Below, piece by piece: positions 2,657 to 28,780 of a stretch of 33,845 bases of DNA. The stretch covers positions 1 to 33,845 of the forward strand of contig DATKVX010000023.1 in the NCBI GenBank assembly GCA_035529855.1. The letters run 5' to 3'. The stretch is from a bacterium. GTDB lineage: Bacteria; RBG-13-66-14; B26-G2; WVWN01. Every line of letters starts with the position of its first letter. Position 1 is the stretch's first letter. The notes under the pieces were generated by a model that saw only the letters and a list, made by a program, of their open reading frames with translations, made no database searches and was not told the origin of the DNA. A program made the translations under genes and the position numbers.

Positions 2657-4996
2657 ATGAAAACGGTTACGTTCCCCATATCCGGCATGACGTGCGCGAC
2701 GTGCGTAGCGACCAACGAGAAGGCGCTGCGCGCGCTGCCGTTCGTCAAAGAGGTGGCAGTAAACCTGGCCGCGGAGAAGGGGACCGTGACGTACGACGAC
2801 GGCCGTGGCCGCTTCGGCGAGTTGGTCAAGGCCGTCCGCGGCGCCGGCTACGACGTCCCGACCGAGAAGGCGGTCCTGCGCATCGGCGAGATGACGTGCG
2901 CGACGTGCGTCGCCAACGTCGAGGACTTCGTCGGCGCCCTGCCCGGCGTGGCCTCCATCGGCGTAAACCTGACGGCGGGGCTGGCGCGCGTCGAGTACGT
3001 CCCCTCGGTCGTATCGCTCGCCGAAATTAAGGGCGTAATCCGCGACCTGGGATACAAAGCCGAAGAGGAGCGGGCGGTTACTCCGACGGGACGTCTTTCC
3101 CCCGCTTTAAAGAGGCTCATATTCGCGGCCGCGTTCACGGCGCCCCTCTTCGTAATCGGGATGTTTTTGCGCTTCCGCTACGACGGCTGGGTGATGCTCG
3201 CGCTCGCGACGCCGGTGCAGTTCTGGGCCGGGTGGCAATTCTACGTCAAGACCGTGCGGGGGGTCCGCCGCGGCATCCTGGGGATGGACGCCCTCATCGC
3301 GATGGGCACGAGCACCGCCTACGGGTACAGCTTGTACGAGCTGCTCTTCGGCCGTACCGGCCACTACTACTTCGAGACCGCGGCCATGATAATCACGCTT
3401 ATACTCTTCGGCCGCTGGCTGGAGAACCGCGCCAAAGGCCGCGCCTCCGCCGCCATCCAGAAGCTCCTCGAGCTTACGCCGCCCGTGGCCCATAAAATAG
3501 CGGACGGCGAAACGCGCGACATCCCGGTGGAGGAAGTAGCGGTCGGCGACCGGCTGCTCGTCAAGCCGGGCGAGCGCGTGCCGGTGGACGCCGACGTGGC
3601 CGAGGGCGTTTCCGCGGTCGACGAGTCGATGCTGACCGGCGAGCCGATGCCGGTGAGGAAGACGGTGGGCGACGCCGTCGTCGGCGGGACCGTGAACCAG
3701 ACCGGTGCCCTCACGATCGTCGCGACCAAGGTCGGTGCCGATACCGTCCTGGCGCAAATAGTCCGGATGGTGGAGGAGGCGCAGGGGTCCAAGGCGCCGG
3801 TCCAGAAGTTGGCGGACAAGGTAGCCGGCGTCTTCGTGCCTACGGTTTTCGCCGTTGCGGCCTTGACGTTCGCCGCGTGGCTTGTAACCGGCCACGCGCT
3901 CGAGCCGGCCATAATCGCCGCGGTGGCGGTGCTGGTCATCGCGTGCCCGTGCGCGCTGGGGCTCGCGACGCCCACCGCCGTTACGGTGGGCACCGGGAAG
4001 GGGGCCGAGCTGGGGGTCCTGTTCCGCGACGCCGAGAGCCTGGAACTTATGGGGCGCGTCACCGTCGTAGCCTTCGACAAGACCGGGACCATAACCAAAG
4101 GCGCGCCGGCGGTGGTGGCGTTCGCGCCGGCTGAGGGCGTGACGGAGGAGGAGCTCGCGACGTACGCCGCCGCGGTGGAGCGGCTGAGCGAGCACCCCGT
4201 CGCGGCCGCGGTCGTCGCCGCCGCCCAAGGCCGCGGCCTGACGCTGCCCGAAGTGGCCGACTTCGACTCCACGACCGGCCGGGGCGTCGCCGCGACGGTT
4301 AACGGTGAGCGCGTGTTGGTGGGAAGCGTGCGCTTCATGAGCGAGAACGACGTCTCGCTCGACGGCATGGAGGGTAGGCTGGCGGAGATGGAGGCGCAGG
4401 GAATCACCGCGGTGGCGGCGGCGCGCGACGGCAAGCTGTTGGGGTTGATCGGCGTGGCCGACGAGCTAAAACCCGGCGCGCGCGAGGCGGTGTCCGCGCT
4501 GGCCCGGGCGGGCGTCGCGACGGCGATGCTCACCGGCGACAACGAGGCCACCGCCGCGGCCATCGCCGGCGAGGTCGGCATCGCGGACGTGCGGGCGCGG
4601 CTGCTGCCGGCCGACAAGCTCGAGGTCTTAAACGGTTGGAAGCAGAAGGGCGAGATCGTCGCGATGGTGGGGGACGGCATCAACGACGCGCCGGCGCTGG
4701 CGGCCGCCGACGTGGGCGTGGCCATCGGAACCGGGACCGACATCGCGCTGGAGGCCGCGGACGTGGCGCTGATGTCGGGGGACCTGGCGGGCGTCCCCCG
4801 CGCCTACCGGCTCAGCCGCCGCACCCTCCGCAACATCAAACAGAACCTGTTCTTCGCGTTCTTCTACAACTCCGCGGCCATCCCGCTTGCCGCGCTCGGT
4901 TTGCTGAACCCTATGATCGCCGCCGGGGCCATGGCGATGTCGTCGGTATCGGTCGTGACGAACGCGCTGCGCTTGAAGAGGTTCCGGGGGGATTAG
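2657..4996 (+). CDS. copA: Cu+-exporting P1B-type ATPase
   Basis: A 779-residue P-type ATPase that pumps Cu+ out of the cytoplasm using ATP. Order of domains: two N-terminal heavy-metal (HMA) domains, each with MTCATC (Cys13/Cys16 and Cys81/Cys84); transmembrane helices; the actuator motif TGEP; the membrane copper motif CPC (Cys430-Pro-Cys432); the phosphorylated Asp474 in DKTGT; the SEHP motif of the nucleotide-binding domain; [10 protein letters not shown]; and the last membrane pair with YN and MSSVSVVTN, the signature of the Cu+ subgroup. It is full length. The ATG at 2657 has only a weak ribosome binding site. The promoter carries a perfect palindrome. The Cys/Met-rich membrane protein just upstream may work with it. 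Confidence 0.95.
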
Positions 4997-19012: not shown

Positions 19013-20146
19013 ATGAAGGTCCACGAGTATCAGGCCAAGGAGATTTTCAAGGAGTTTGGCATAAAGACGCCCCGCGGCGGCGTCGCGACGACGCCCGAGG
19101 AAGCGGAGGCCGTCGCGAAGGAGGTCGGCGGGCCGGTCGCCGTCAAGGCTCAGGTCCACGTGGGAGGCCGCGGCAAGGCCGGCGGCATCAAGGTGGCGCA
19201 GACGCCGGCGGAGGCCAGGGAGGCCGCGGCGCAAATCCTCGGCATGGACATCAAGGGCCTCACCGTGGAGAAGGTCCTGGTGGAGGAGGCGTCCCGCATC
19301 GCGAAGGAGTATTATCTGGGCTTCGTCGCGGACCGCGCCGCGAAGGCCGTAACGCTTATGGCCTCGAGCGAGGGCGGCGTCGAAATCGAGGAGGTCGCGC
19401 GGACCAACCCGGACGCCATCGTCAAAGTTACGGTGGACCCGTGCCTGGGCCTGCACGGCTTCCAGGCGTTCACGGTCGGCAAGAAGCTGACCGGCGACGC
19501 GGGGAAGGCACGCGTCGTCGCCGACGTGTTGTCGAGAATTTATAAAGCGTTCGTGGCGTACGATTGCTCGTTGGCCGAGATAAATCCGTTCGTGGAGACG
19601 GAGGACGGCGACTTCATCGCGCTCGACGCCAAGATAAATATCGACGACAACGCCCTCTTCCGCCACGCCGAGCTGGCGGAAGGCCGCGACGACCTGGCCG
19701 AGACCGAGCTACGCGCCAAGGCCGCGGACCTCAGCTACGTCCCCATGACCGGCAACGTGGCCTGCATCGTCAACGGCGCCGGCCTCGCGATGACGACGAT
19801 GGACCTCGTCAAGCTTTACGGCGGCGAGCCGGCGAACTTCCTCGACGTCGGCGGCTCGAGCTCCCCCGAGAAAATCCTGACGGCGATGGACATCATCATG
19901 TCGTCGCCCGGCGTGAAGGCGGTGCTGGTGAACATCTTCGGCGGCATCACGCGCTGCGACGACGTCGCGACGGGCCTGGTCGCCGCGCTAAAGAAGCACC
20001 CCCTCGACGTTCCGCTCGTCGTCCGCCTAACCGGCACCAACGAGGAGGAGGCGCGCGAAATTTTGAAGAAGGCCGGCATCGAGGCCGGCTCGGATATGGA
20101 CGAGGCGGTCAAGGCCGCGGTGGAGGCGGCACGAGGGAGCGCTTAG
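19013..20146 (+). CDS. sucC: Succinyl-CoA synthetase beta subunit
   Basis: A 377-residue ATP-grasp subunit of the tricarboxylic acid cycle enzyme that makes ATP (or GTP) from succinyl-CoA. It starts MKVHEYQAKEIFKEFGI and has GGRGKAGGIK, EINPF and DNALFRH for nucleotide and Mg2+ binding, then DVGGSSSPEK and VNIFGGITRCD in the CoA-ligase part. Full length for the family. The leader contains a small hairpin (TTCGGC/GCCGAA, 18985-19000) directly before the GGGAG ribosome binding site. sucD normally follows at once; here about 2 kb of MNT-HEPN genes lie between. The last 46 bases of the gene are duplicated at 20907-20952. Confidence 0.95.
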   Translation: MKVHEYQAKEIFKEFGIKTPRGGVATTPEEAEAVAKEVGGPVAVKAQVHVGGRGKAGGIKVAQTPAEAREAAAQILGMDIKGLTVEKVLVEEASRIAKEYYLGFVADRAAKAVTLMASSEGGVEIEEVARTNPDAIVKVTVDPCLGLHGFQAFTVGKKLTGDAGKARVVADVLSRIYKAFVAYDCSLAEINPFVETEDGDFIALDAKINIDDNALFRHAELAEGRDDLAETELRAKAADLSYVPMTGNVACIVNGAGLAMTTMDLVKLYGGEPANFLDVGGSSSPEKILTAMDIIMSSPGVKAVLVNIFGGITRCDDVATGLVAALKKHPLDVPLVVRLTGTNEEEAREILKKAGIEAGSDMDEAVKAAVEAARGSA

Positions 20147-20372
20147 CGGGGCGCGTAAGTATGCGTAAATTAGATTGGGACGAGAGCGGCTCTTTGGAGA
20201 ACTGGCAGCGAGCGGTGCTGGAATTCGCCCGGCGTGCGCGCGAGGAGCTGGGTGACCATATCGTCCGCATCATACTCTACGGCTCGCGGGCGCGGGGGGA
20301 TTATACCGAGGACTCGGATATCGACATCCTGGTGGTCGTGCGGGATATCGACGCCAAGGAGGCCGACGAGCG
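20101..20372 (+). repeat. 272-bp direct repeat, copy 1
   Basis: Runs from the 3' end of sucC through the first 71 codons of the first nucleotidyltransferase gene. It matches 20907-21178 with about nine mismatches (offset 806 bases). The identity stops abruptly at 20372. Confidence 0.92.
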
Positions 20373-20511
20373 ACTGAGTTGGTTAGCGTGGGAGGTTTTG
20401 GAGGATTACAACGAGTTATTTAGCGTCCGGGTCGTTCGGGAGGACGAATACGCCGTGAAGCGGGGCTCCAGTTACTATATTAACGTAAATGAAGAGGGCG
20501 TTGCCGTATGA
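20161..20511 (+). CDS. MNT-type nucleotidyltransferase, copy 1
   Basis: A 116-residue minimal nucleotidyltransferase. The pol-beta-type catalytic motif GSRARGDYTEDSDID carries Gly41-Ser42 and the metal-binding Asp53 and Asp55. Such proteins pair with HEPN proteins; in the MntA-HepT systems the MNT partner inactivates the HEPN toxin by adenylylation. The gene starts 14 bases after the sucC stop, without a clear ribosome binding site, and its TGA stop overlaps the ATG of the HEPN gene (ATGA), the usual coupling of such pairs. The first 71 codons are almost identical to those of copy 2; the rest is only distantly similar. Confidence 0.88.
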   Translation: MRKLDWDESGSLENWQRAVLEFARRAREELGDHIVRIILYGSRARGDYTEDSDIDILVVVRDIDAKEADERLSWLAWEVLEDYNELFSVRVVREDEYAVKRGSSYYINVNEEGVAV

Positions 20512-20903
20512 ACGACGATACTCGTACGGATATACTAGGCAACGTCGAGTTGGCTCGCGAAACGTTGGCCGAAATGCGCGGGGCGGTCGAGCGCGGCCGT
20601 TATAGAATCGGCGTATCGCACTTATACTACGCATGCTTCTACTATCTCCGGGCGTTACTGCTGACAAAAGGCGCCGCGTATCAGTCCCATAAGGGCGTCA
20701 TCGTCGGGTTCAATTTATTTTTCGTCAAGGAAGGTTTAGCGCCGCGCGATATGGGTGCGTTTTTACGGAAGCTGGGCGACGACCGGCAGGAAGCCGATTA
20801 CCGGTTCGGGAAATATAAACGCGAAGACGTAGAGGCCAGAATAAAAAAAGCGGACGCGTTCATAGTGTTCGCGGAGGGGTATCTGGAAGAAGCGTTGAAG
20901 TAA
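20508..20903 (+). CDS. HEPN-domain protein, copy 1
   Basis: A 131-residue all-helical HEPN protein. The typical segments are SHLYYACFYYLRALLLTKG and SHKGVIVGFNLFFVKEGL, then DADYRFGKY-like QEADYRFGKYKREDVE. The RNase-type RxxxxH motif of toxic HEPN proteins is not clearly present, so toxin activity is uncertain; a role as a binding or scaffold protein is also possible. It overlaps the nucleotidyltransferase gene by four bases. It is clearly related to the N-terminal half of copy 2 (both have YQSHKGV and F-x-V-x-EGLA), but at protein level only. Confidence 0.85.
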   Translation: MNDDTRTDILGNVELARETLAEMRGAVERGRYRIGVSHLYYACFYYLRALLLTKGAAYQSHKGVIVGFNLFFVKEGLAPRDMGAFLRKLGDDRQEADYRFGKYKREDVEARIKKADAFIVFAEGYLEEALK

Positions 20904-20906
20904 ACG

Positions 20907-21178
20907 CGAGGCGGTCAAGGCCGCGGTGGAGGCGGCACGAGGTAGCGCTTAGCGGGGCGCGTAAGTATGCGCAAATTAGATTGGGACGAGAGCGGCTCTT
21001 TGGAGAACTGGCAGCGAGCGGTGCTGGAGTTCGCGCGGCGTGCGCGCGAGGAGCTGGGCGACCATATCGTCCGCATCATACTCTACGGCTCGCGGGCGCG
21101 GGGGGATTATACCGAGGACTCGGACATCGACGTACTGGTGGTCGTGCGGGATATCGACGCCAAGGCGGCCGACGAGCG
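20907..21178 (+). repeat. 272-bp direct repeat, copy 2
   Basis: Starts 3 bases after the stop of the first HEPN gene with a copy of the last 46 bases of sucC (here untranslated), then covers the first 71 codons of the second nucleotidyltransferase gene. About nine mismatches to 20101-20372. The duplicated sucC tail shows that the unit was copied from a position next to sucC. Confidence 0.92.
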
Positions 21179-21317
21179 CATATTCCCGTTCGCGCATTAC
21201 GCGTTAACCGAATACGAAGAGTTATTGTTCGCTTCCGTTCTTACCGAAGAGGAATACGTCGCAAGCCAGGCGAGGAGTTTTTATATTAACGTCGCCGAAG
21301 AAGGTGTAGGAGTATGA
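20967..21317 (+). CDS. MNT-type nucleotidyltransferase, copy 2
   Basis: A 116-residue paralog of copy 1 with the same catalytic motif (GSRARGDYTEDSDID) and the same length. Residues 1-71 differ from copy 1 at only a few positions. From ERIFPFAHYALTEYEELL on, the protein has diverged strongly, though the order of conserved positions (E-E-Y, FYINV-EEGV) is kept. The stop overlaps the ATG of HEPN copy 2 (ATGA). It presumably acts on that partner. Confidence 0.88.
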   Translation: MRKLDWDESGSLENWQRAVLEFARRAREELGDHIVRIILYGSRARGDYTEDSDIDVLVVVRDIDAKAADERIFPFAHYALTEYEELLFASVLTEEEYVASQARSFYINVAEEGVGV

Positions 21318-22063
21318 CGGAGGAATTTCGGCAAGAGGTCCGTGAAGATTTAAGCGCGGCGGAGCGGAAGTTTACCTCAGCGGAATTCAATTTATCCCAA
21401 GGAGCGTTCGGCGAAGCAGTCGCGGACCTATATTACGTCTGTTTCCATTACCTCCGGGCGGTATTGCTAACGCGGGGGACGAAATACCAATCGCATAAAG
21501 GCGTCCTTAACGGTTTCCATAAGCATTTCGTCAACGAGGGGTTAGCGGAAGCGGAGTTGGGGAAGTTTCTAAATAACCTTGCGAAAGCGCGAAACGACGC
21601 CGACTATAAATACGGTACGTTCGACGCCGCCACGGTTTCATCGTTCCGCGATCAGACGCTTGCGTTTCGGGATTTTGCGGTGACTTATCTTGGCCAATTT
21701 TCCGATTGGGTACTCGTGTTCCGAGGGGCCCCCGTGCTTTTCGACCTCCTAAAGAATTCGTGGGAGAGTATCCCCGCAATAAAAGAACGGTGGATATACA
21801 ACGGCGTTTTCCACCGCCGCGCCCCGAGCGAATCAGGCTTACCTTCGCAAATAACGGTAGTCGTGTTACCGGATGGTACGGTGAGGTGCCGTTATCCGAA
21901 AAAGTCCGTATTGTTAGCTTTACCCGAATCCCCGCGAGACGAGGCTTTAAGTTACTTGGGTGATTTGTTGGAGGCATTATATATACAACTCGCCGCCGAT
22001 CTTCCGGCGGATTGGCGTAACGACGTATCGATTACCATTGAACCTCGTTACGAAACCGATTAA
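21314..22063 (+). CDS. HEPN protein with an extra C-terminal domain, copy 2
   Basis: A 249-residue protein. Residues 1-133 are a HEPN domain like copy 1 (LYYVCFHYLRAVLLTRG, SHKGVLNGFHKHFVNEGL, NDADYKYGTFD). Residues from about 134 to the end form an additional region not in copy 1: DLLKNSWESIPAIKERWIYN, then a beta-looking stretch (SQITVVVLPDGTVRCRYP) and a final SITIEPRYETD. I do not recognise that region. Codon choice from about 21330 on is richer in A/T-ending codons (TTA, ATA) than in sucC, which suggests a different origin. It is coupled to nucleotidyltransferase copy 2 by a four-base overlap. Confidence 0.82.
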   Translation: MTEEFRQEVREDLSAAERKFTSAEFNLSQGAFGEAVADLYYVCFHYLRAVLLTRGTKYQSHKGVLNGFHKHFVNEGLAEAELGKFLNNLAKARNDADYKYGTFDAATVSSFRDQTLAFRDFAVTYLGQFSDWVLVFRGAPVLFDLLKNSWESIPAIKERWIYNGVFHRRAPSESGLPSQITVVVLPDGTVRCRYPKKSVLLALPESPRDEALSYLGDLLEALYIQLAADLPADWRNDVSITIEPRYETD

Positions 22064-22140
22064 CGCGCGGGCGGTTCCCGTACGAAAAACGTTAATGTGG
22101 AGTGTTACTTAACGTCAACCGATATTAACCCGGAGTCTCT
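22064..22140 (+). promoter_or_regulatory. Leader of sucD with inverted repeat
   Basis: 77 bases between HEPN copy 2 and sucD. ACGTTAA (22089-22095) and TTAACGT (22109-22115) form a 7-bp inverted repeat with a 13-base gap, possibly an operator or a weak hairpin. A GGAG ribosome binding site precedes the sucD ATG. No clear promoter was found, so sucD may depend on transcription through the MNT-HEPN genes. Confidence 0.35.
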
Positions 22141-23016
22141 ATGTCCATTCTGATAGACGAAAATACCAAGCTCATCGTGCAGGGCATCACGGGCCGCGAC
22201 GGCTCCTTCCACGCCGCGCGGATGAAGGAATACGGCACCAGGGTGGTCGCCGGCGTCACGCCCGGCAAGGGCGGCTCGAGCGTCGACGGCGTCCCCGTCT
22301 TCGATACCGTAGCCGAGGCGGCCGAGGCCACCGGCGCCAACACCTCCATCATCTTCGTGCCGGTCGCCTTCGCCGCGGACGCGGTGTACGAGGCCATAGA
22401 CGCGGGCCTGGAGCTCGTCGTCATCATCACCGAGGGCATCCCCGTCGCCGACATGAACAAGATATATCATTACGCCGAGGAGGAGGGCGCGCGCTTCATC
22501 GGCCCCAACTCGCCGGGGCTCATTAGCCCGGGCAAGGCCAAGGTGGGCATTATGCCGGCGCGCATCCACGAGGCCGGCGACGTCGGCGTCGTCTCGCGCT
22601 CCGGGACCCTCACGTACGAGGTGGTATACGCGTTAACGCGGGCGGGGCTGGGCCAGTCGACGTGCATCGGCATCGGCGGCGACCCGGTCATCGGGACCGG
22701 CTTCATCGATTGTTTGGAGATGTTCGAGGCCGACCCGGAGACGCAAGCCGTGGTCCTCATCGGCGAAATAGGGGGCGACGACGAGGAGCGCGCCGCGGAA
22801 TACGTAAAGGCGACGATGTCGAAGCCGGTGGTGTCCTTCATCGCGGGCCGGACCGCGCCCCCGGGCAAACGGATGGGCCACGCCGGCGCCATCATCTCGG
22901 GCGGCGCCGGGACGGCGGAGGGCAAACGCAAAGCGCTGACCGCCGCGGGCGTAGGCGTCGCCGATACCCCCAGCGTCATCCCGGCGATGGTCAAGGAGGC
23001 GCTGGGGGCCGGATAA
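22141..23016 (+). CDS. sucD: Succinyl-CoA synthetase alpha subunit
   Basis: A 291-residue subunit that binds CoA and carries the phosphohistidine. It has the start [21 protein letters not shown], the CoA-binding stretch [14 protein letters not shown] and the active-site histidine in [19 protein letters not shown]. Full length. It works with SucC, encoded about 2 kb upstream; the two genes are separated by four MNT-HEPN genes. The Cys-rich secreted protein gene follows after 39 bases. Confidence 0.95.
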
Positions 23017-23055: not shown

Positions 23056-23511
23056 ATGGCAAGAAAGATAATCATAGGGTATATCGCGCTGGTGTTGGGC
23101 GCGATGTTGGCCTTGCCGGGGCCCGCGGACGTCGCGGCGCAGGACAGCATAACCTGCATCTATTGCGACGGTTCGGGCGAGGTAACCTGCGCTTATTGCG
23201 ATGGAAACGGCACCGTTACGTGTAATTACTGCGACGGCACCGGGAAGATTACGTGCACGTATTGCAACGGGACCGGCCGCATCCGCTGCGCGGAGTGTTT
23301 CGGCAAGGGATACATCTACGACGACGGCAATAGAACGAAGTGCCCGACGTGTAAAGGCGCGGGGAGCTTCCCCTGCGATTACTGCGTCGACGGCAAATTA
23401 TTCTGCGACGTATGCCGCGGTTCCGGCAAATTGACGTGCGTGGTGTGCGACGGTTACGGCGCGGTGCAATGCGCCGTATGCAAGGGTACCGGGAAGATGA
23501 AGTTAAAATAG
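23056..23511 (+). CDS. Secreted protein built of ten DnaJ-type CxxC motifs
   Basis: A 151-residue protein. A signal peptide ([29 protein letters not shown]) leads into a mature part consisting almost only of CxxC units of about 10-17 residues: [72 protein letters not shown] and CAVCKGTG. CxxCxGxG is the zinc-finger motif of DnaJ, which has four; here ten are present, without J domain or substrate domain. Pairs of motifs bind one zinc in DnaJ, so five zinc ions could be bound. In an oxidising compartment the cysteines might instead form disulfides. Partner unknown. It lies 39 bases after sucD; no ribosome binding site is evident. Confidence 0.85.
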
Positions 23512-25338: not shown

Positions 25339-25551
25339 ATGAAAAAGATTTTACTGTGGATATTATTTTTCGTCTTCCTGATATTGATAATAAGCCCCAT
25401 AGACCTGATGCCCGGGCCGGTGGACGACATCGTCTACGGCATCCTGGACGTGATAATTATCGCCCTGTTGGGCGTGGTCCGGGACAAGAAAAAGAAAGCG
25501 CTCCCGCCTTCCGAAAAAGGCGAGAGCGCGGGCGTAAACGACAAACGCTAA
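25339..25551 (+). CDS. Small DUF1232-like membrane protein
   Basis: A 70-residue protein: one or two hydrophobic helices (residues 4-20 and 31-47), with SPIDLMPGPVDDIVYGILD between them, which resembles the DUF1232 (YkvA) core where an Asp-Leu-x-Pro pattern precedes a short helix. A basic tail (RDKKKKALPPSEKGESAG) ends the protein. It starts 2 bases after the recN stop; AAAGG inside the end of recN serves as ribosome binding site. Function unknown. Confidence 0.7.
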   Translation: MKKILLWILFFVFLILIISPIDLMPGPVDDIVYGILDVIIIALLGVVRDKKKKALPPSEKGESAGVNDKR

Positions 25552-25582: not shown

Positions 25583-25747
25583 CTAGCAACAGCTGGCGTC
25601 GGCCTTGCTTTTGTCGCCCGAGTGCGGTGAGCGGCAGCAACACATCGGGAAGCACTTCATGAGTTGCTGGGCTCGTTCTCCCTTTACCCGGATGATGTAT
25701 TCGCCGTCCTTCTCCTCGATCTTGACGTCAAGGATATTTTTATCCAC
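25583..25747 (-). CDS. 54-residue Cys-rich protein
   Basis: A small minus-strand gene with a GTG start and a near-perfect ribosome binding site (AAGGAGGTGG). The protein starts MDKNILDVKIEEKDGEYIIR, a short beta-hairpin-like part, followed by VKGERAQQLMKCFPMCCCRS and ending in DASCC. Six of the last 23 residues are Cys (CFPMCCC and the terminal CC) and one is His, a likely metal-binding or redox tail. It has no signal peptide, so it is cytoplasmic. It is convergent with recN and lies downstream of the restriction-modification operon's terminator. Not recognised as a known family. Confidence 0.75.
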   Translation of the reverse strand: MDKNILDVKIEEKDGEYIIRVKGERAQQLMKCFPMCCCRSPHSGDKSKADASCC

Positions 25748-25846
25748 GGTACCACCTCCTTTCTTTGTTTGCTATATTCGTATATTTAAAATAATAGATG
25801 TTATAAGGTAAAAAAAACCGCGGCGCGACGGAGGTTATCAAATACG
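25748..25846 (-). promoter_or_regulatory. AT-rich leader of the Cys-rich gene
   Basis: About 100 bases, very AT-rich from 25770 to 25817. On the minus strand the 5' part holds the end hairpin of the restriction operon, and the remainder may hold a promoter (TTACCT, 17 bases, TAAATA at best), but no box pair is convincing. Confidence 0.3.
25810..25832 (-). terminator. Terminator of the restriction-modification operon
   Basis: On the minus strand a short GC stem (CCG-CG pairing with CG-CGG, one bulged T, loop CGC) is followed by eight T. It lies about 15-35 bases after the endonuclease stop codon. Confidence 0.55.
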
Positions 25847-26761
25847 TTATGATTTAGTACGGTGTAGCCAATCCATCAACGCCGGTAAGTTGTGCGCCCA
25901 GAATAAAGTAAGGCCGCGGTCCTGTGCGTCTTGGAGATTGTGGAGGGCATAAACGCCGCTCAGCATAGCTGCAGGCACTACCTGTACGGTGCCGAAGTCT
26001 TTCCGCCACGTCTCTGCCTTAACGGCAGCGTCATTGTTGAGTCTCTTGACGGAGTTTGTGGCCGAATTCGAGACCTTGCATTCGAGCGCCATCGTCCTAC
26101 CATCCCACAATCCGATTAGGAAGTCCGCCTTTCGAGTTCCAAGCATCGACTCTCGGCAGAATTCCCCTGGTGCGGGGGCTGACGAGAGCGTGGCGACACG
26201 ACGAGCGTTCACCTTTCGAAACCGTGATCTTTGAAGCTGGGTTGCAACAAACCGCTCTTGGATTTCCTTCCCTTCATTCCTTCTCATCGTTTCAAGCCGT
26301 CTCATGGCAAGCAATGCCGTTGTTGCTAGTACGGCTGCGGAACGTGCATGCTCGTCCGGTTCCCATCCCTCAGTAAGCCAGGGGAATCGTTTTCGGTCGT
26401 GCCAGTCTTTGATAAAGCCAACAAGCCGATCGAGGAGAGCAGGGTCATCCGAAAGCCGGCCGGGTGCGAGCGATACGGTCTGTACCAGCACTTTAAGGTC
26501 ATCTACGGAAATAGGAGGCCCTGATATATACCGAAAAACCTCTTGTTTCCGTTTGTCGGAAAGTAGGTCGAGGGCGTGTTCGTCTATTTGGGCAAGGTCT
26601 ACGGTCTGCTCTAAAAATTCTTCGACCACACCTTGGTACTCGTCAAACAATTCGAGATACAATTCCAAAGGTTCAGTATGGCGCCCCTCTCGAAAATGCG
26701 CTTCGGATGTTTTACGGGCTTTGTCTAACTCTTCAGTTGTCCATTTCGGAGGTTCGAGCAA
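25847..26761 (-). CDS. XamI-like type II restriction endonuclease
   Basis: A 304-residue protein resembling the XamI family of type II endonucleases. The start (PPKWTTEELDKARKTSEAHFREGR), a long helical middle and a C-terminal PD-(D/E)xK nuclease core fit. The core is visible as TRKADFLIGLWDG and ALECKVSNSATNSVKRLN, giving Asp213 and Glu227-x-Lys229 as catalytic residues. XamI itself cuts GTCGAC; whether this enzyme does is not shown by the sequence. The gene starts inside the end of the methyltransferase gene (29-base overlap), so methylation is made first. GC is lower than in neighbouring genes, consistent with horizontal transfer. Confidence 0.8.
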   Translation of the reverse strand: MLEPPKWTTEELDKARKTSEAHFREGRHTEPLELYLELFDEYQGVVEEFLEQTVDLAQIDEHALDLLSDKRKQEVFRYISGPPISVDDLKVLVQTVSLAPGRLSDDPALLDRLVGFIKDWHDRKRFPWLTEGWEPDEHARSAAVLATTALLAMRRLETMRRNEGKEIQERFVATQLQRSRFRKVNARRVATLSSAPAPGEFCRESMLGTRKADFLIGLWDGRTMALECKVSNSATNSVKRLNNDAAVKAETWRKDFGTVQVVPAAMLSGVYALHNLQDAQDRGLTLFWAHNLPALMDWLHRTKS

Positions 26762-28457
26762 TTCCGATCTCCTTTAATATTTCCGGTTCCGGGATAGGCA
26801 ACCGTTCCATCTCTCGCGGTTCGAACTTAGTAAGGCCACCGGCGTATACACGACCTCCGTGTAGGCTGGCCGATTCGCGTAGATAGTGGACAAGGCCGGT
26901 CAGAACCTCCGCTGTTATTTCTTCACGCGGATAAAGGCCGTGAGCGATGTTTAGGTGCCGCGCTTCCACTCGGTTTAAGACGAAGGTGGGCGGCCTTCTC
27001 GCCATGTACGTTGCAAGAATCGGGGCGGGTTTTCGCAGACCCACGGACCACCAGGCTTTACGATGACGGACAATATAACTCTCGCGGACCCCCATTTCTT
27101 CGGCGCGCTTTAGAAAGCGGTTGATGGCATCTTTTTCTTTACCGTTAAAACCTGATAGGTCTTGCGGTAGGTCGATTACGCGACGTAACGCCTCGTCGTC
27201 GGTTAAAACCCAACTTGCACTAAAAAGCTCACGGGCCTTGGTAACGGTTGGGAATAGTACTGTTTCGGGTAGCCCTGCGCTGTGGGGTCCTGCGATCCAA
27301 ATGTGATTGGCTCCCGTTACCTGTCCTCTATGTACTCGAGCGAGTTCCCCGAGTTCCGTATAACCTTCCGGAACCTCGCGCGGCGTCCGCGTAAAATGAG
27401 ACCACCTTTTTTCCGTAGCCAAACGTTCGCGCCCAACCGGACGACCGATAGAAAGATCACTAAGGTTTTTCAAACTCTCGACCCGAGCGAACTTAGCGGA
27501 TGGGGATTTTCCATTAACTGTGAATGTCGTGATAGCCCCCGTCGTGGCTGTCCCAGGGAACGGTTCCGCCCCCGGCTCGATTACAATGACACTTTGACCG
27601 CCCAAACGATCAAGGAATAAGTCGCGAACGAGCTGGCCGTAGTTGACGTCCATCCACTCCGCGGCCGTGATTAAACCACCGTAATCACCGGCTTTAGCGC
27701 GTCGCGCTATGGATAGGAAGAAATAAACGTGGAGCCCCGCCAGCGTACTAGCGTTAAGCCCCATCTCCGCCGCTTCGTTTTTCAACCACGATTTCCACTT
27801 CGGTTCTATTAAGTGGTGCCGCACGTACGGAGGGTTGCCAACGTAAAGCGTACTGCCCTCAAATCCGTCCAGTGTTGAGGTACGGAAATCTTCCAACCGA
27901 ACCTCAGCCCGATCCGCCATACCGGACGCCGCAAGGTTCGCTTTTACAGTTAACGCTGCGAGCGGGTCCGACTCCACCGCGACAAGATACGCTTTCGGAA
28001 ACCTCCGGCCGGCCTCCAATAAAAATCGGCCAGATCCCGCGCCAGGATCGATTACCCGTTTTGGTTCCCCAACCGTCTCCGCCCACGAAATGATAGCTTT
28101 GACGATCTCGCGGGGCGTATAGACGGCACCGTCTTTACGACGCCGCGGTGGGGGCCGCAACGCACAAAACGCCTCTCCGAGTGGGTCTTCTCCGGCGCGA
28201 ATTCGATCTCGCAATTCGCGTATAACCCGGTCGCTCATCTTCGGCAGTCCGTATGCGAGCTTGGTTTCCGATGTAGATAATCCCCTAACGACTAGCGCCC
28301 CCAATCCAAAGGCGAGCGCAGCTAGTATACGCTCGCTTTTTATGAGGCTGGTCGTTTCCGCCTCGTTTCCATCGTCGTCTATAAGAGGCCAAGGAACATC
28401 GAAGTTCCTTTTTACCGCCTCTTCGAATAAGGGGGATATTCTTTTATTCTCTACCAC
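26733..28457 (-). CDS. Adenine-N6 DNA methyltransferase of the restriction system
   Basis: A 574-residue DNA methyltransferase. A helical N-terminal part is followed by GAVYTPREIV, the SAM-binding motif I (DPGAGSGRF, residues 137-145), the catalytic motif NPPY (208-211) and a C-terminal target-recognition region that includes HRGQVTGANHIWI and LNRVEARHLNIAHGLYP. This order is that of gamma-class adenine-N6 methyltransferases. It should protect host sites from the endonuclease encoded next. The GTG start at 28457 lies 6 bases after the ArsR-type gene, with its ribosome binding site overlapping that gene's stop, so it is expressed from the regulator's promoter. GC is lower than in the flanks. 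Confidence 0.9.
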   Translation of the reverse strand: MVENKRISPLFEEAVKRNFDVPWPLIDDDGNEAETTSLIKSERILAALAFGLGALVVRGLSTSETKLAYGLPKMSDRVIRELRDRIRAGEDPLGEAFCALRPPPRRRKDGAVYTPREIVKAIISWAETVGEPKRVIDPGAGSGRFLLEAGRRFPKAYLVAVESDPLAALTVKANLAASGMADRAEVRLEDFRTSTLDGFEGSTLYVGNPPYVRHHLIEPKWKSWLKNEAAEMGLNASTLAGLHVYFFLSIARRAKAGDYGGLITAAEWMDVNYGQLVRDLFLDRLGGQSVIVIEPGAEPFPGTATTGAITTFTVNGKSPSAKFARVESLKNLSDLSIGRPVGRERLATEKRWSHFTRTPREVPEGYTELGELARVHRGQVTGANHIWIAGPHSAGLPETVLFPTVTKARELFSASWVLTDDEALRRVIDLPQDLSGFNGKEKDAINRFLKRAEEMGVRESYIVRHRKAWWSVGLRKPAPILATYMARRPPTFVLNRVEARHLNIAHGLYPREEITAEVLTGLVHYLRESASLHGGRVYAGGLTKFEPREMERLPIPEPEILKEIGIARTSEMDN

Positions 28458-28463
28458 GTGACC

Positions 28464-28742
28464 CTACCCTTTTACGCCGTTGATTTCGAACTCGTCGCGG
28501 ACGCAGCAGCACACGGAGTTGACTTTATCTTTATCTATGGCGTAATAAACCGTGGTGCCGCACTTTTCGGCCGTGACGAGGCCGGCCTCACGCAGGACCC
28601 GTAGGTGATGGGAAACGGCGGGTTGGCTGAGGTTGACGCGGGCGACGATGTCACCGACGCAAAGACGTTCGCAACACAGCGCCTTAAGAATCGAGACGCG
28701 GACCGGGTCGCCGAGGGCTTTAAAGGACGTACATATATCCAT
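28464..28742 (-). CDS. ArsR-family metal-type regulator
   Basis: A 92-residue winged-helix repressor. The ArsR core reads FKALGDPVRVSILKAL, then the recognition helix LSQPAVSHHLRVLREAGLV and the wing CGTTVYYAID. Cysteines sit in CCERLCVGD on the helix before the recognition helix (where ArsR/SmtB sensors bind thiophilic metals) and in a terminal CCC. A metal or arsenite sensor is likely. The ATG at 28742 is preferred: the promoter's -10 box ends at 28752, so the transcript starts three or four bases before the ATG (leaderless). An upstream TTG at 28763 would be in the promoter. The methyltransferase gene follows after 6 bases. Confidence 0.85.
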   Translation of the reverse strand: MDICTSFKALGDPVRVSILKALCCERLCVGDIVARVNLSQPAVSHHLRVLREAGLVTAEKCGTTVYYAIDKDKVNSVCCCVRDEFEINGVKG

Positions 28743-28780
28743 ACATTTAAATGTATAACACAACGGGCCCGCGATGTCAA
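28741..28780 (-). promoter_or_regulatory. Promoter and palindromic operator of the arsR-type gene
   Basis: On the minus strand TTGACA (28780-28775), a 17-base spacer and TATACA (28757-28752) form a strong promoter. A perfect 16-bp palindrome, ATACATTTAAATGTAT, covers 28741-28756, spanning the -10 and the start of transcription and reaching the ATG. ArsR repressors bind such dyads, so self-repression is likely, and the whole restriction-modification operon would be controlled with it. Confidence 0.7.

Follow-up and report, generated by a model that had tools for sequence, protein, structure and literature searches.

Analysis of a 33,845-nucleotide stretch of bacterial DNA (contig DATKVX010000023.1 of assembly GCA_035529855.1; hereafter the window) revealed a known kind of restriction-modification (RM) enzyme pair with an unusual host-derived regulator in front of it. 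Comparison with related genomes indicates that a XamI-family methyltransferase-endonuclease (M-R) cassette that lacks its own regulator was very probably acquired horizontally and integrated where the native arsR gene ends, at its stop codon, where it split arsR from a cysteine-rich (Cys-rich) partner gene and placed the host regulator in the controller slot by accident. The locus is a clear case from nature of a regulator-less restriction cassette settled behind a probable host autorepressor, the empty site still being present in three sister genomes (the sampled same-genus genomes G001, G002, and G003), and one in which defence expression possibly falls under host metal sensing.

The genes of the locus lie on the minus strand. 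The arsR gene (28464–28742; 92 aa), assigned from family profiles and orthologues, ends in a stop codon at 28464–28466 and is followed after a gap of 6 bp (28458–28463) by M, a Type II N6-adenine DNA methyltransferase gene (26733–28457; 574 aa, GTG start). M overlaps by 29 bp (26733–26761) with R, which encodes a XamI-family endonuclease (25847–26761; 304 aa, TTG start); M was assigned from profile matches, and R from profile matches and homologue alignment. A sequence-only reading of this DNA had reported the same order, gap, and overlap, which agreed with the re-read coordinates, and the three families it proposed were confirmed by profile scores. Absent from that reading was the Cys-rich gene (25583–25747; 54 aa, GTG start, GGAGGT ribosome site), which lies 3' of R, likewise on the minus strand, and has orthologues in the sister genomes. 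The terminator which had been placed after R could be retained only in part. A stem at 25829–25817 does precede a T-run, but it is weak (5 pairs), and a T-run is also present at this position in the empty site of G001; the strong terminator-like hairpin detected by the terminator scan, 14 pairs followed by a T-rich stretch, is located 3' of the Cys-rich gene at 25529–25498.

In all three sister genomes, an arsR orthologue is followed within approximately 70–90 bp by the Cys-rich gene without restriction genes between them, and both flanks are syntenic, with recN on one side and the phosphoglycerate mutase and prolyl-tRNA synthetase genes on the other. Thus, arsR and the Cys-rich gene constitute a native unit, and G004, a genome of the same order, likewise has an arsR adjacent to a Cys-rich gene. 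Similarity to G001 at the DNA level stops at positions 25819 and 28482 of the window, and nearly the same points were obtained with G002 and G003, delimiting an inserted M-R segment of approximately 2.66 kb (25820–28482, ends ± ~10 bp). These alignments indicate that the segment is a later insertion at the arsR stop codon, found in one genome only among the genus members sampled (the host and G001–G003). As a result of the insertion, ArsR ends in FEINGVKG here, compared with FEVE in G001, and arsR no longer adjoins the T-rich stretch that comes after it in the sisters. Inspection of the junctions by eye showed neither a target-site duplication nor the end of a mobile element. Of the two possibilities offered by the sequence-only reading, a regulator native to a locus that received the cassette gained support, with arsR standing at the same place without M-R in the three sisters. 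The first half of what that reading had named as evidence against a linked operon, namely related genomes carrying the regulator alone without restriction genes, was found in the same three genomes.

In at least the genus, and probably throughout the order, the gene for the 54-aa Cys-rich peptide belongs natively beside arsR as its partner. The peptide shows a conserved N-terminal DxxxEEKDGEYIIRxKG sequence and a Cys-rich C-terminal half ending in CC. Profile searches matched it to no known family, and it is possibly a metal-binding peptide.

The distribution and composition of M-R were also compared with those of the neighboring genes. RE_XamI could be detected in 3 of the 386 genomes searched and in none of the 13 other sampled genomes of the phylum. 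Searches of further phyla added little. The closest relatives found were located in an alphaproteobacterial and a Tepidiformaceae metagenome-derived genome, with 67% and 63% identity, and on 18 plasmids from Alphaproteobacteria, Actinomycetota, Pseudomonas, Massilia, and one haloarchaeon. The GC3 values of M and R were 0.55 and 0.53, clearly below the 0.70 for arsR, 0.75 for the Cys-rich gene, and 0.91 for recN, in keeping with a foreign origin. A viral origin was considered and rejected: R had no relative among viral contigs, and M gave only a weak partial match to one phage. Three chromosomal matches were uninformative on the regulator slot, one (G163) having a different layout with an in-frame stop in its R match and another (G044) consisting of fragments. 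In the third genome, G442 (locus L101, contig G442:C33, 1198–2118, minus strand), a XamI-type endonuclease frame begins with a fused fragment similar to the C-terminal region of M; no full M was found near it, and the locus is apparently a decayed RM system.

By every feature testable here, M-R is a XamI-family RM pair, and both reading frames are intact. M scored 656 bits against PADLOC MTase_II, carries intact NPPY and SAM-binding motifs, and adjoins R as its paired N6-adenine methyltransferase. R scored 213 bits against PADLOC REase_II and 113 bits against Pfam RE_XamI (PF09572; curated cut-off 25), and its D213...E227-C-K229 motif of the PD-(D/E)XK type is intact, with D213, E227, and K229 invariant in relatives. 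The 29-bp overlap is real because the TTG start of R (26761) aligns with the starts of its homologues. The presumed recognition site, which we take from the family prototype to be GTCGAC, was not depleted in approximately 260 kb of the host genome (242 sites against 227 expected) or in G001 (233 against 226), a result compatible with either a recent arrival or another specificity. Avoidance of GTCGAC as a mark of long residence was therefore not detected within this ~260 kb.

The regulator belongs to the ArsR/SmtB family, scoring 96.4 bits against the NCBIfam profile NF033788 (cut-off 55), and SmtB is its nearest solved relative; the more specific NCBIfam models SdpR, CmtR, BigR, and TsoR all remained under their cut-offs. 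Its start was set to the ATG at 28742 (MDIC...), 21 bp inside the TTG at 28763 given by the ORF tool, because this ATG is kept in the three sister genomes and one same-order genome. Cys residues occur in the alpha3 region (CCERLCVGD) and as a CCC cluster near the C-terminus; the latter is invariant out to G004, and those of the alpha3 region vary. The dN/dS of arsR against G001 was 0.12, with approximately 0.15 for recN, indicating that arsR is still constrained.

A promoter could be read upstream of arsR, with TTGACA at 28780–28775, a spacer of 17 bp, and TATACA at 28757–28752, and sequence comparison placed the TTGACA at equal distance in G001–G003. The consensus promoter scan omitted this promoter owing to its last-base rule. 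The -10 hexamer ends approximately 10 bp before the ATG, giving the arsR mRNA a nearly leaderless appearance in all four genus members. Motif comparison revealed an operator-like site, TTAAATGTATGGATAT, across the arsR start codon (28735–28750, minus strand), which is a better-supported candidate operator than the stretch 28741–28756 named in the sequence-only reading. This site was observed to cover the arsR start codon in 4/4 genus members. A second operator-like site, TTAAATATACGAATAT, lies upstream of the Cys-rich gene (25774–25789, minus strand), and the two sites can be made out in each of the four genus members. The common motif TTAAATRTNYGRATAT has exactly two perfect copies in the 2.62-Mb assembly, at the arsR start and before the Cys-rich gene, a count that is partly circular, these being the sites on which the motif itself was built; the reversed control pattern had 0 copies in the same assembly. 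In G004, which lies outside the motif derivation, an arsR start is overlain by a copy with one mismatch, and among shuffled pairs 1 of 300 was as similar as the two sites of the window. On these grounds, ArsR likely represses both its own gene and the Cys-rich gene.

Other genes of the window were also noted. A heavy-metal P-type ATPase gene with two HMA domains, resembling CopA, is located at 2657–4996 (plus strand), and its surroundings showed no operator-like site. The recN gene is preceded by a gene at 23056–23511 (plus strand) for a secreted-looking protein of 151 aa with repeated CxxCxG zinc-finger motifs like those of the DnaJ central domain. In the region 19013–23016 (plus strand), a nucleotidyltransferase-like frame (from ~20200–20511 onward) and a HEPN-domain gene (21314–22063) lie between the succinyl-CoA synthetase subunit genes (19013–20146 and 22141–23016); they resemble an MNT-HEPN pair within a housekeeping operon, and a similar stretch is present in G001.

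The gene slot before M was compared among M-R relatives. Alphaproteobacterial plasmids carry a Xre/HigA-type helix-turn-helix gene in this slot, and Massilia and Pseudomonas a ribbon-helix-helix-like gene (weak matches, under cut-off). In Rhodococcus and Micrococcus it is occupied by a gene for a 74–75-aa protein without a family match, which looks like a small winged helix, and in Agreia by a gene for a 236-aa protein of no known family. In Gordonia and Mycobacterium kansasii, the position immediately upstream of M holds no small gene of the same strand. At locus L031 an IS1595-type transposase fragment precedes M, and at locus L032 glpX does. Since it stands behind such differing upstream genes, M-R is a portable two-gene unit, and the comparison suggests that, from host to host, unrelated regulators occupy the slot before XamI-type M-R pairs. 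ArsR was found beside M in none of the relatives examined. The arsR-M-R trio as a conserved module was rejected on this count together with the empty site in the sisters. That reading was correct in placing ArsR directly before M, in the position of a C protein; its other possibility, a dedicated controller linked to metal or thiol stress, was not upheld, given the lack of ArsR beside these relatives.

Under the preferred explanation, the native arsR was probably autoregulated, and its Cys-rich partner peptide probably binds metals or thiols. The arsR stop and the M start are 6 bp apart without a good terminator between them, from which read-through into M-R was deduced; such read-through would put M and R under the same control as arsR. 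M-R is most likely transcribed by read-through from the ArsR-controlled promoter, and arsR, M, and R are likely co-transcribed from it. ArsR would hold M-R low through this read-through transcription, a thiophilic metal or thiol-reactive inducer acting at the ArsR Cys sites would release M-R expression, and M would methylate host sites and R would cut unmethylated DNA in the usual Type II manner. Metal-dependent restriction is plausible, and follows only if this ArsR senses metal. It is possible, and can be put forward tentatively, that the captured ArsR truly controls restriction: M and R would be little expressed in the resting cell, a thiophilic metal or thiol stress would induce both of them along with arsR and, in parallel, the Cys-rich peptide, and restriction strength would track the metal state of the cell.

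Independence of M-R from ArsR, with transcription from a cryptic promoter of its own, appears rather unlikely. Own promoters are common among RM genes, consensus scans miss non-canonical promoters, and M could have a weak promoter, for example within the 3' end of arsR; against this stand the short same-strand gap, which holds no terminator, and the scan's sole promoter-like match on the minus strand, which is inside R and not before M. We consider it improbable that ArsR was recruited under selection as a C-protein analogue, a role in which it would set the timing of M and R and couple restriction to metal or thiol stress. Such recruitment would be in line with the location of arsR directly before M, where plasmid relatives have small DNA-binding genes, with the operator-like site over the arsR promoter, and with the constraint on arsR after the insertion. 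However, ArsR is native and this constraint is accounted for by its original role, the trio occurs in one genome only, and M and R form one operon behind arsR with no evident transcript-level delay of R relative to M.

Arrival of the whole trio as a defence module with its own regulator is the least probable of these readings, and is largely refuted by the empty sites in the sisters. All three genes are lower in GC than the adjoining recN and phosphoglycerate mutase genes, but the sisters carry both arsR and the Cys-rich gene as orthologues in synteny, with similarly low GC (0.55 and 0.59). Moreover, the breakpoint falls at the arsR stop and not upstream of arsR, and no M-R relative examined has an ArsR beside it. 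Insertion of a regulator-less cassette behind a native arsR is the explanation retained here.

Compared to C-protein Type II RM systems of the PvuII and BamHI type, the locus shares a small DNA-binding regulator gene directly before the RM genes in one operon. C proteins, however, are of the Xre-type helix-turn-helix and travel with RM genes, whereas the regulator here is a native ArsR/SmtB winged helix outside the C family, and its gene occurs without RM genes in the three sister genomes; at most, the locus may work like a C-protein RM system. Reviews of RM regulation describe C proteins, promoter methylation, methyltransferase-repressor fusions, and antisense RNA (PMC3874152, PMC12707154), and no ArsR-controlled RM system was found in the open-access literature searched, including passages of these reviews. 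With the ArsR/SmtB metalloregulators (NF033788; SmtB, CzrA, and AfArsR-like), the regulator shares the family signature, Cys residues in the alpha3 region, a C-terminal Cys cluster, and an operator-like site across its own promoter and start; it differs in that its native partner is a small Cys-rich gene without a known family. The enzymes M and R themselves are ordinary. XamI-family pairs on plasmids of Sphingopyxis (pSREG01), Tabrizicola, Rhodococcus (pNC500), and Pseudomonas aeruginosa likewise place R after M on one strand, with the two genes overlapping or almost touching, and most of them show 46–57% identity in R and 43–60% in M to the present pair. Those plasmid pairs have a Xre/HigA-type gene, a ribbon-helix-helix-like gene, a small gene of no known family, or none before M, whereas the present pair is chromosomal, has an empty site in sister genomes, and stands behind a host arsR.
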